64,000 nt of DNA from NCBI RefSeq assembly GCF_011064595.1, contig NZ_JAALJI010000012.1, positions 124,001-188,000 on the forward strand, read 5' to 3'. This stretch comes from Paludisphaera soli. GTDB taxonomy: Bacteria; Planctomycetota; Planctomycetia; Isosphaerales; Isosphaeraceae. A program made the position numbers and the translations under genes. Below the pieces are notes generated by a model. The model was not told where the DNA came from. It ran no database searches and was given only the letters and a program-made list of their open reading frames with translations. Shown here one piece after another: positions 39,778 through 45,800 of this stretch (its first letter is position 1; every line of letters begins with the position of its first letter).

Positions 39778-40449
39778 TCAGCGCCGGACGGGGGCCGTCG
39801 CGGCTTCGACCGGGGCCGATTCGGCGGGCTTGGCGGAGTCCGTGACGGCGACGGCCTTCTCGGCCTCGCGGGCCGGCAGGATGCTCTTGGCGTAATACTG
39901 GACCATGGTCCGATAGTCGGGCCCGTGGTTGGCCTCGACGAGCCCGAAGCTCGACGCGACCTCCTCGGTCGCCTGCTCCAGGGTCCAGCCGCAGTACTTC
40001 ATCCGGTAGGCCATCTGCACCATCGAGACCCGGTTCAGGCCGTGGTGGCAGTGGAAGTAGATTGGGTGGTTCGCCGGGTCGTTGACCACCGCGGCGGCCT
40101 CGTCGAGCAGCTCGAAGATGGACTTAGGGTCCTCCTGGCCGCGCTGGTCGATGATCGGGACGTGCACCCAGCGGATCCCCAACTCGTTCGCGAGGTTCCG
40201 CTCCTTGGTGGCGATGGCGCTGTCATAGGGGTGGGCGAGGGCCAGGATCGTCTTGAGCTTGCAGTCGCGGGCGATGCGGCGCATCGGCCATTCCTTCTGC
40301 CAGGCCCCGCGGTAGACCTTGCCCGGCTCGAGTTCGGCGAACTGCTGAGCGAAGACGTAGTCGGAGCCGTGCCGCCAGGTCTGGTGCACCGCCAGGACGG
40401 CCAGGCCGACCGCCAGCGCGATACGCAGCCATTTACGACGATTGGACAT
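39778..40449 (-). CDS. Membrane-anchored dual-specificity-type phosphatase
   Basis: A 223-residue protein. Residues 1-25 form a basic start and membrane segment (RKWLRIALAVGLAVLAV). The rest is a cysteine phosphatase fold with the P-loop HCHHGLNRVS, giving Cys-x5-Arg, and the upstream acid-loop region HVPIIDQRGQEDPKS. LEPGKVYRGAW is a common opening for DSP-like bacterial phosphatases. GGGAG precedes ATG 40449. The C-terminal Ala/Pro/Lys tail looks disordered. The substrate could be a phosphoprotein or phospholipid and cannot be told. Confidence 0.82.
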   Translation of the reverse strand: MSNRRKWLRIALAVGLAVLAVHQTWRHGSDYVFAQQFAELEPGKVYRGAWQKEWPMRRIARDCKLKTILALAHPYDSAIATKERNLANELGIRWVHVPIIDQRGQEDPKSIFELLDEAAAVVNDPANHPIYFHCHHGLNRVSMVQMAYRMKYCGWTLEQATEEVASSFGLVEANHGPDYRTMVQYYAKSILPAREAEKAVAVTDSAKPAESAPVEAATAPVRR

Positions 40450-40765
40450 CGGGCGAAATCTCCCTGTCAGCCGGCCGACGGACCGCTCGTCCGCCATCAC
40501 GAACATCCCCTTCCCTGGGGCGGCGCCCCCGAGGACGTCGATCGGACGAGGGCGGCGGATCCTAGCAAGACCCGCCGGAAGCCACAAGTCGGGCCTCGGC
40601 CTCCCTCCAGCATCGGCCCCCCCGGACGCCGGGTTGAAGAAATCCGCCGCCCGAACGAGTGGCGACGGTTTTTCGCGTCGTCAAAATCCCGCCCCTTGGT
40701 ATTCTCGGGGCCGAGCCCTAGGATTGGGCGTCTCGTCGGCGAGGAGGCCGGAGGACCGATCGATC
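40450..40765. promoter_or_regulatory. Divergent promoter region
   Basis: A 316-base gap separates the phosphatase from the DAC-like gene on the opposite strand. The segment 40660-40715 has short A/T tracts. I found no strong promoter pair or operator. Confidence 0.4.
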
Positions 40766-42226
40766 ATGGTGAATCAGACGATGCGGAAGGCGGTCCGGTT
40801 CGACGCGCCGACGCTCGCGGAGCAGACCTTGCTGGCCCGATCCGAGCGTCATTACGGCCCCGTCTCGAAGGTCGTCGGCCTTTACCAGTCGGTGATGCGG
40901 CGCACGCTCGAACACTTCTTCCCCGACTCGGTCCTGGAGATCCAGGGGGACCGCAGCATCATCGACTGGGACGTCGTGATGCAGGAGACCCCTTATAAGC
41001 TCAGCGACGACACCGACCGCCTGGCGATCGACATCGAATGGCGCGGCACGCGGCTGACGTTCCAGCCGGGGAGCCCGGTCCCCCTGTTCCCGTCCGAGCG
41101 GCGGATGATCGACGTCATCGTCCACGCCCTCGACCATCGCTTCCGATCGCTCTTCGACCAGGACGTCAACGACCGGGTCGAACGCTTCAACTACCTGACG
41201 GAAGACCTCATCATCGCCGACTTCCTGGCGACCGAGGGCCCGTTCCGCATCCCCGCGGCGCTGGAGGCCCTCCGCGTCGCCGCGCTCTCGACCTACGAGA
41301 ACAAGCGGGTCACCACCGGCGCCCTGCTCCTCGGCACTCCCAACGACCCGACGACCCCCGGCCGCGAGAACCTCCAGGGAGCCCCCCAGTTCAACGCCCG
41401 GCTCACCGCCATCAAGGGCTTCCACCGCCTCTGCGACGGCCTGCGAACCGTCTTCGTCGTCGACCCTCAAGGGGAGCTTGTCCGGATCGCCGACATCGAC
41501 CAGTGGGCCGAGCGCACCCAGGCCCGCCACACCCAGGCCCACCTCTGCCCCCGCCCCTACCAGAGCCACGCCCGGGCGACGATCTCGGACGGGCACGTCT
41601 GCGTGGCCCTGACCCCCTCGCAGGAGATCAAGGTCTTCTCCCGGGGCGAGATGACCTTCAGCTTCAGCGACGGCCGCTGGCGGCTGCTCGACATCGCCAG
41701 CAAGTTCGCCGTCTGGCGCGAGGCCGTCCAGCGCTCCAGCGACGACGACCTCGCCCGCCGCCTCTTCCAGGCCGCCATCAACCTCAGCGAATCCCGCGTC
41801 GGCGCGCTCCTGGTCGTCGCCCGCGACCCGGAGAAATCCATCCCCCAGCTCATCGCCCCGGTCGACCGGATGAACGAGGAGATCGCCGTCGACGACCCCC
41901 AGGACCCCGAGAACCTCTCGCCCCGGCTGGCCAAGCGGGCGCTCCACCACGCGGTGCGCGGTATGACCGTCAGCCAGCTCGAACCGACCGTCCTGGAGGC
42001 CATCGCCAGCCTCGACGGGGCCGTCGTCACCGACCCCGACGGCGGGCTCGTGACCTTCGGCGCGATCCTCCGGATCAACCCCGAGGTCCTGGACCTCGGC
42101 CGCTCCGTCCAGGGCGCCCGCACCCTGGCGGCCCTCGCCGCCTCCCAGTTCGGCCCGGTCCTCAAGGTCAGCGAGGACGGCTACGTCACCATGTTCCTGA
42201 AAGGCCGACGGGTCTGGGAATTCTGA
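40766..42226 (+). CDS. DAC-like (DisA_N-like) protein with altered catalytic motif
   Basis: A 486-residue protein. The C-terminal 150 residues follow the diadenylate cyclase layout: LFQAAINLSESRVGALLVVARD, then the conserved DGA at 417-419 in SLDGAVVTDPDGGLVTFGAIL, then GARTLAALAASQFG (450-463) where active enzymes have GTRHRAA, and SEDG at 469-472 where SEETG is usual. DGA is kept but the RHR is lost. The N-terminal 320 residues look like a DACNV-type sensor domain from memory of that family. GGAGG at 40750-40754 supports ATG 40766. It may bind rather than make cyclic di-AMP; this is inference. Confidence 0.65.
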   Translation: MVNQTMRKAVRFDAPTLAEQTLLARSERHYGPVSKVVGLYQSVMRRTLEHFFPDSVLEIQGDRSIIDWDVVMQETPYKLSDDTDRLAIDIEWRGTRLTFQPGSPVPLFPSERRMIDVIVHALDHRFRSLFDQDVNDRVERFNYLTEDLIIADFLATEGPFRIPAALEALRVAALSTYENKRVTTGALLLGTPNDPTTPGRENLQGAPQFNARLTAIKGFHRLCDGLRTVFVVDPQGELVRIADIDQWAERTQARHTQAHLCPRPYQSHARATISDGHVCVALTPSQEIKVFSRGEMTFSFSDGRWRLLDIASKFAVWREAVQRSSDDDLARRLFQAAINLSESRVGALLVVARDPEKSIPQLIAPVDRMNEEIAVDDPQDPENLSPRLAKRALHHAVRGMTVSQLEPTVLEAIASLDGAVVTDPDGGLVTFGAILRINPEVLDLGRSVQGARTLAALAASQFGPVLKVSEDGYVTMFLKGRRVWEF

Positions 42227-42242: not shown

Positions 42243-43016
42243 TCACGTCGCCGGCGGCGCCGGCAAGAGCCCCCGCGCCCAGGCCTCGTCTTCCGCCGAC
42301 AGCGGCGGCTCGGGAAGGCCGTGGTAGAGGAAGTAGGCGTAGCCCGCCTCGTCGTACACCTGATTCAAGGCCTCCTGCAGATCGACCCGGGCGTCGGCGT
42401 CGGGCGCACGCAAGGGGATCGGGATGATCGGCAAGCGGTCGCGCAACCCGATCGGCCAGAAGCCGACGCCGGGACGTCGCTCCGCTCGACTGACGAGCAC
42501 CGAATACGCACAGGGCGGCCGGTCGGTCGGCGGCATCGGGGGATGGCCTCGAAGCAGGTCGATTTCGACAAGATTCGCCGCACTCCCGAGGATCTCCCGC
42601 CGCTTCTGCAAATAGCCCCCGCGGTTGTTGCCACGCCGCTTGTTCGCAGGGCTCAGCAGTTCGACGACGGCGATCAACTCGCGATCTTGACGATCCAGGA
42701 TCTTCAGGAACGGCAGGCGGACGATTTCCTCGGCCGGAATCTCCAGACGTGTCGGAGCTTCCAGTTCCGCGAGAGCCGCGCCCCCTCGCGCCGGCCCCTC
42801 GTCGAGGCGGGTCGCCGCCAGATCGGGCCGGATGGAGCGGACGGGCCGCCCGGGCTCCTCGTGGACGTAGACGTTCTCCTCCATGAGAACCATGTACTTC
42901 GGGAGGACCTGGCTTGCGATCCGATGCCGAAGCGCGGGGATGAAGGCCGAGTGGAAGTCCGGCCAGATGTCGTCCTGCTCGATCCAGGGATTCATGCCGG
43001 GGAATGGCGAAGGCAT
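42243..43016 (-). CDS. DUF4058 family protein
   Basis: A 257-residue protein matching DUF4058, seen in planctomycetes and cyanobacteria. The start MPSPFPGMNPWIEQDDIWPDFHSAFI is diagnostic, followed by RELIAVVELLSPANKRRGNNRGGYLQKR and NLVEIDLLRG, which recall the acidic and Lys positions of Uma2-like nuclease folds. The C-terminus is YDEAGYAYFLYHGLPEPPL. The function is unknown. It lies alone on the minus strand and converges closely with the DAC-like gene, only 16 bases apart. Confidence 0.9.
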   Translation of the reverse strand: MPSPFPGMNPWIEQDDIWPDFHSAFIPALRHRIASQVLPKYMVLMEENVYVHEEPGRPVRSIRPDLAATRLDEGPARGGAALAELEAPTRLEIPAEEIVRLPFLKILDRQDRELIAVVELLSPANKRRGNNRGGYLQKRREILGSAANLVEIDLLRGHPPMPPTDRPPCAYSVLVSRAERRPGVGFWPIGLRDRLPIIPIPLRAPDADARVDLQEALNQVYDEAGYAYFLYHGLPEPPLSAEDEAWARGLLPAPPAT

Positions 43017-45410: not shown

Positions 45411-45800
45411 TCAGTTCTGGCCGGTGGCCTGGGGAGCGGCGTAGGCCTGGGGAGCAGCGTAGGCGGCCTGCGGGGCGGCGTAGACCGCCTCGGGGGCCGA
45501 GTAGACGACGTCGCCGTAGACCGGGGCGCAGGTCGCGGCGGCCTTCTTGTGGCAGCCCAGCTTCGGCATCTTGAACTTCGGCATCTTGAAGCAGTGCTTC
45601 TTGGGGGCCGGGGCGCAGGTCTCGACGACCGCGACCGGCTCGCAGACCGGGGCCGGTGCCGGGGCGCAGACCGGGGCCGGGGCGGGGGCGCAGGCCGGGG
45701 TGCAGGTGGCCTTCTTCTTGTGACAGGCCTGGGCGTCGCCGACGAGGACGAAAGAACCAACCAGAGCGCCGAGAGCCAGGCCCAACAGGTGCCGCTTCAT
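45411..45800 (-). CDS. Secreted Cys/Ala/Pro-rich small protein
   Basis: A 129-residue exported protein. A signal peptide of about 25 residues (LLGLALGALVGSFVLVGDAQA) leads to CHKKKATCTPACAPAPAPVC and further CAPAPAPVC repeats, a basic HCFKMPKFKMPKLGCHKK block, and a C-terminal YAAPQAAYAAPQAYAAPQA repeat. The Cys residues, about ten in the mature part, could form disulphides or bind metal. GGGAG precedes ATG 45800. No characterised family was recognised; proteins of this design are common in planctomycetes. Confidence 0.78.
   Translation of the reverse strand: MKRHLLGLALGALVGSFVLVGDAQACHKKKATCTPACAPAPAPVCAPAPAPVCEPVAVVETCAPAPKKHCFKMPKFKMPKLGCHKKAAATCAPVYGDVVYSAPEAVYAAPQAAYAAPQAYAAPQATGQN

Follow-up and report, generated by a model that had tools for sequence, protein, structure and literature searches.

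Does a protein that keeps the DGA motif of diadenylate cyclases (DACs) but lacks their RHR motif still handle a nucleotide and, if so, does it make a product or only sense one? This question is raised by a gene of Paludisphaera soli located at positions 40766..42226 (+) of the 64,000-nucleotide stretch of DNA analyzed here (the window). The gene translates to 486 amino acids plus a stop codon (protein P0001), and its start at 40766 matches a methionine at the equivalent alignment position in congeners. The first-pass annotation described a DAC-like protein with DGA at residues 417-419, GARTLAA at 450-456, where diadenylate cyclases have GTRHRAA, and SEDG near the end; the translation confirms all three, with SEDG at 469-472.

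Three parts can be delineated in the protein. The N-terminal region (residues 1-157; 40766..41236, +) has no family match in Pfam and is the least conserved part, with 3 of the 51 invariant positions. It is followed by a second domain (residues 158-318; 41237..41719, +) and by a C-terminal domain (residues 326-486; 41741..42223, +) which, judging from Pfam and profile comparisons, is a genuine but divergent DAC fold. The DAC family (PF02457), the sole Pfam family in the window protein at E ≤ 1, matches residues 336-480 with an E-value of 1.8e-5 and 24.8 bits against a curated cut-off of 27; the same place scores 27.2 bits in the genome search, and 21 of the 35 aligned family members have a PF02457 match at E ≤ 1. 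The profile of the family's C-terminal domain aligns with canonical CdaA domains (E 1.3e-6), with DacZ-type DACs (E 1.5e-7; none of 60 column shuffles scored as high) and with DS-2-like DACs (E 3.8e-10). The assignment to the DAC fold follows from the PF02457 match together with these alignments, and the annotation, which was to be abandoned if a profile search found no DAC, is borne out on this point. The DACNV domain that it also suggested does not show up when the 35 members are scanned with Pfam; among sensor models, DACNK comes nearest, with a weak match to the second domain in 6 of the 35. PADLOC assigns no family to any of the 35. A profile search of the PDB with the 35-row alignment returned no DAC, and an RPA49 match in that search (E 0.1 and above) was dismissed as chance. 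AlphaFold2, given two sequences (the window protein and relative L007), yielded a mean pLDDT of 32.6 over the full length and 33.2 over residues 150-322.

The pocket can be followed residue by residue. According to a study of CdaA, the GALI motif is the adenine contact, and the pocket includes Leu31 of GALI, Asp71 of DGA, Thr102-Arg103-His104 of GxRHRxA, Ser122 and Glu124 (PMC7288161). Of these residues, Leu31, Asp71, Arg103, Ser122 and Glu124 map to L348, D417, R452, S469 and D471, which are kept in 33, 35, 35, 35 and 35 of the 35 aligned members, respectively, D471 being an aspartate in the place of Glu124. The place of GALI is taken by GALL (346-349; 41801..41812, +), and DGA (42014..42022, +), which the annotation gave as kept, is present in all 35 members. 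G450, A451 (the Thr102 place), R452 (the Arg103 place), S469 and D471 are likewise invariant. SEDG (42170..42181, +) occupies the place of the (V/I)SEE motif, which here reads VSEDG: the serine and the first glutamate are kept and the second glutamate is an aspartate in 35 of 35. The GxRHRxA motif is replaced by GARTLAA (42113..42133, +), with threonine (34 members) or serine (one) at position 453, the His104 place, and threonine (19), leucine (14), valine (one) or alanine (one) at position 454. The alignment was hand-picked from 54 extracted rows and the motif was recounted on all of these: GAR[TS] is present in all 50 members that reach the motif, the other four being fragments that end earlier. 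Thus, the claim that the protein lacks RHR holds for the last two letters, but the first arginine, R452, is invariant. By these alignments, the absence of RHR is a trait of the whole family. Lacking GxRHRxA, the window protein is better not classified as a diadenylate cyclase, although it may still work like one.

The loss of RHR is accompanied by a gain. Lys467 (42164..42166, +), two residues ahead of the pocket serine, is present in 49 of the 49 extracted members that reach this place (among the 54 rows) and in all six far members. We denote these proteins the GxRT...KxSxDG class, a name coined in this analysis. The lysine is found in 41 of 41 class members (a count that, like the tree below, leaves out L065, a contig-edge fragment that reads GGRFAA and keeps the lysine) compared with none of the 36 CdaA, DacZ and DS-2-like domains, where the place is mostly occupied by valine. 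For CdaA, 30 loci were fetched and only the 18 that gave a frame with the search pattern were counted; this pattern demanded RHRAA, so the motif state of the CdaA domains is selected and the lysine column is not. A tree of 77 domains, midpoint rooted and built on few columns, with a long-branch warning, places the class apart from the rest (SH-aLRT 90). If the segment that carries Lys467 is a strand, as in DAC structures, residues 467 and 469 would point to the same side.

The gene is widespread in its own planctomycete family. Matches were found in 34 of the 59 genomes searched, namely, 34 of the 37 from that family and none of the 22 that represent six further families in the same taxonomic class; the three family genomes without a match make up one genus. 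Sorted by hand, the matches fall into group A (30 genomes) and group B (22), with both in 19 and a total of 33 of 37, one fragment being unassigned. The own genome (7.97 Mb in 197 contigs) carries a paralogue of the window gene on contig C101. The sole relative found in the named genome collection comes from Planctomycetales bacterium 71-10 and is 87% identical. Purifying selection acts on the window gene: its dN/dS ratio (NG86) is 0.11-0.26 in comparisons with five congeners, and 0.21 and 0.44 with two genomes from a different genus. Farther afield, a profile search of 294 Planctomycetota genomes matched 18, including the own genome, with four further class members (L064-L067), seven DS-2-like DACs, five DacZ-type DACs and one unrelated protease-like protein (L079), which was dropped. 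Plasmid and phage records added relatives from Agrobacterium vitis (GGRTAAA), Vescimonas fastidiosa (GGRTAAA) and a gut contig (GARGAAC), as well as one from Paracoccus albus in which the frame ends ahead of the motif. The far class members lie in other Planctomycetota, on a Clostridia plasmid, on the gut contig and on an Agrobacterium plasmid. A plasmid search with L067 as the query gave no match, and the 49 stretches of viral contigs that fit a pattern included no relatives. A partial literature search found no paper on this class, and we do not claim its absence from print.

The window class differs from each of the known kinds of DAC compared. It shares with the CdaA/DisA DACs (PF02457) the fold, a GALI-like motif, DGA, GxR and the pocket serine, but these have GTRHRAA and SEE where the class has GAR[TS]xA, SED, the new lysine and other N-terminal domains. 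With the DacZ-type (DacZ_P-DAC) proteins, the fold, DGA and GxR are common; however, DacZ-type DACs keep the histidine (RHW, RHE, RHR and others, 7 of 7 compared), read S[QE]S instead of SED and carry the DacZ_P sensor domain, whereas the window protein has no DacZ_P match and has T453 at the histidine place. RHR is likewise missing from DS-2 (NF053872; DACNG-DACNH-DAC), which also keeps GxR and has an S[ED]D motif. The differences are that DS-2 reads RYN and has valine or isoleucine ahead of the serine, where the class has RTx and lysine, and that DS-2, unlike the window protein, has DACNG and DACNH domains and CBASS neighbors. The NCBIfam model NF053872 (DS2_3_antiphage) scores 13.2 bits on the window protein against a cut-off of 630 and gives weak matches in 26 of 35 members (best E 2.3e-4). 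The architectures DACNK-DAC and DACNH-DAC do not describe the family either: no sensor domain above the Pfam cut-off was found in the members scanned and none at all in the window protein.

In DS-2-like DACs, RHR is replaced by RYN or RFN in 11 of 11 cases. One of these, an Escherichia coli protein named DS2_3_antiphage, an anti-phage protein, in the NCBI annotation (L107:4001-5746), has DGT and GSRYNSG; its gene comes after those for an anti-phage phospholipase and a nucleotidyltransferase. We take this locus to be DS-2 because of the gene order and because a Citrobacter relative scores 804 bits against the cut-off of 630 at 85% DNA identity. Directly after the E. coli locus lies a second CBASS operon. 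Mutating two residues predicted to be catalytic in the DS-2 DAC reportedly abolished defense (PMC13092281). A DAC without RHR can thus be functionally needed, and the missing motif is no proof that a protein is inactive.

RHR is incomplete in the family's other DACs as well. The own genome encodes two DacZ_P-DAC proteins (L061:5966-7162, -; L062:5766-6665, -) with the motifs GTRHWAA and GTRHEAG, and all 29 DacZ/CdaA-type DACs fetched from 18 family genomes (a count that leaves out one unfetched match and one partial) are without RHR, reading RHW (15), RHE (13) or RHS (1). The two types seen in the own genome make up 28 of the 29. As RHR is incomplete both in these proteins and in DS-2-like DACs, its lack alone does not separate a sensor from an enzyme. 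Of 25 family genomes, 4 have c-di-AMP riboswitches (RF00379) that score above the cut-off; the own genome is not among them. In three cases (L173, L174 and L175, from genomes G023, G019 and G012) the downstream frames appear permease-like by eye. From these DACs, riboswitches and frames, we infer that c-di-AMP signaling probably exists in this planctomycete family. In these three genomes, too, the fetched DACs are without RHR.

Fold membership, the conservation of D417, R452, S469 and D471, the change from T-R-H-R to A-R-T-x, the invariant Lys467 and purifying selection form the base on which the readings of this protein can be weighed. Tentatively, we prefer a signaling-type protein in which the C-terminal DAC fold would hold a rewired but working nucleotide pocket. 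Lys467 would lie on the Ser469 side of the strand and take over the phosphate contacts of the lost histidine; the pocket would bind ATP or a related nucleotide; the protein would join or cyclize nucleotides and not only sense them, with a product perhaps other than c-di-AMP; and residues 158-318 might dock onto the catalytic domain and gate it, serving as a pseudo-dimer partner within the same chain. Between an enzyme and a pure sensor, the enzyme is slightly more likely. The proposal of the annotation, a nucleotide-binding sensor or an enzyme with a changed substrate, survives in that the protein is best read as having an altered nucleotide site, but it was too simple: the first arginine of RHR stays, and the change is common to a whole family and goes with Lys467.

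The strongest rival, which we regard as a real if somewhat doubtful possibility, is a pseudoenzyme sensor that would bind ATP, c-di-AMP or another DacZ-made nucleotide and signal via its N-terminal domains or a partner, with no chemistry. No aligned member retains the histidine or the threonine of the ATP-phosphate site, and this counts against our preferred reading, as does the lack of a match between the second domain and CdaA (below). In addition, the two DacZ-type DACs of the own genome could make c-di-AMP, freeing the window protein to act as a receiver; the riboswitches of the four family genomes fit a receiver as well, though none is in the own genome. The substitution of AAA for RHR reportedly abolishes ATP binding and activity of Rv3586 and the activity of CdaM (PMC3328451, PMC13022847). 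These dead mutants also weigh against a working pocket, but all three residues were replaced there, whereas here the first arginine stays and a lysine is gained. Against a pure sensor stand the invariance of D417 and of the acidic D471, the new class lysine and the need for residues of the RHR-less DS-2 DAC.

That the protein simply makes c-di-AMP in the usual way, needing no more of RHR than the first arginine, appears improbable. DGA, GxR, the serine and the acidic residue are kept, and other DACs of the family genomes have an incomplete RHR, but the histidine is present in 25 of 25 DacZ and CdaA domains compared (the CdaA frames having been selected by RHRAA) against none of the 52 class and DS-2-like domains, and the class holds a motif of its own rather than the canonical one.

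Still less probable is an anti-phage accessory cyclase alongside CBASS, as thought for DS-2. On an Agrobacterium vitis plasmid (L082:7362-13162), a class member adjoins Mov34/MPN/PAD-1, ThiF, DncV-like nucleotidyltransferase and patatin genes, which we take to be the layout of a type II CBASS. Nucleotidyltransferase and patatin genes also adjoin the DS-2-like DACs of Citrobacter and Gluconobacter plasmids, and one on a Priestia plasmid is near a nucleotidyltransferase gene. Against this, no CBASS gene is found among the window neighbors and none is named around the Vescimonas relative; the SMODS model matches in 0 of 32 genomes, among them the own one, while controls such as E. coli did match; and the gene is present in 34 of 37 family genomes. 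As far as searched, in the window neighborhood and with SMODS in 32 genomes, the family does not partner with CBASS. The CBASS operon of the Agrobacterium vitis plasmid runs opposite to the class gene. Finally, a DAC fold that binds no ligand, being in decay or serving structure only, to which the divergence from the Pfam DAC might point, is the least probable explanation of all, given dN/dS well below 1 and 19 invariant positions among the 56 of the pocket region 417-472, compared with 51 among all 486.

The second domain bears on how such a protein could be built. Residues 158-318 of the window protein have no Pfam domain; DACNK (PF21753) matches in the 6 members mentioned above are all below the cut-off (best E 0.015; the best score shown, 15.4 against 27 bits, is in a paralogue). 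The domain is common to the far members (probability 96.7). A joint profile of the second domain and DACNH regions can be aligned with DacZ-type DACs over almost the full length (score 34.7, P 6.8e-5, or about 0.002 after correction for the 30 comparisons made between such N-terminal domains and DAC-type profiles); none of 120 shuffles came up to it (the highest was 18.6), the six control profiles of unrelated families reached at most 16.9, and a benchmark pair of true DACs (DS-2-like and DacZ) scored 40.1. Without the DACNH rows, the score against DacZ is 31.1 (P 3.2e-4; 0 of 120 shuffles). The DACNH rows have a weak link of their own to the second domain (P 0.039; 0 of 60 shuffles) and alone match nothing among the DACs. 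Seven of the 30 comparisons were at P < 0.01. One of them, the family's N-terminal against its C-terminal domain (aN vs aC, P 7.5e-5), was discarded for overlapping slices, and in the comparison set that contains it, DS-2 row L068 was cut at the wrong DG; in four of the other six, the DAC profiles include the family's own C-terminal domain. Against CdaA profiles alone, four of four comparisons gave nothing below P 0.04. On balance, these profiles suggest that residues 158-318 are a probable degenerate DAC half, with duplication likely but not proven.

Our preferred reading can be extended, in a form that we consider unlikely, to a class in which the positive charge that binds phosphate would have moved off the RHR helix onto a lysine in a strand, and which would act as a single-chain asymmetric cyclase, with a degenerate DAC half on a catalytic half and a product that is not c-di-AMP. 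If this were true, DACNH in the anti-phage DS-2 cyclase would likewise be a pseudo-DAC. RHR is taken to mark c-di-AMP synthesis, and here a conserved class drops it without signs of decay; Lys467 is the candidate compensating residue and gives a sharp mutational prediction. An active protein would represent a new nucleotide chemistry for the DAC fold and an inactive one a nucleotide sensor of a new kind. In both cases, relying on PF02457 alone for annotation would be misleading.

The divergent neighbor of the gene encodes a member of the tyrosine/dual-specificity phosphatase family (39778..40587, -; PF03162, E 5e-10). In 15 of 21 loci, a phosphatase gene is found on the strand opposite the class gene, farther off in several; the two are recurring neighbors for which we claim no functional pairing. 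On the other flank lies a DUF4058 gene (42243-43016, -). Farther downstream, the window encodes a small protein rich in cysteine, alanine and proline, perhaps exported and with no Pfam family (45411-45800, -), and similar frames are found near the DAC gene in five congeners.
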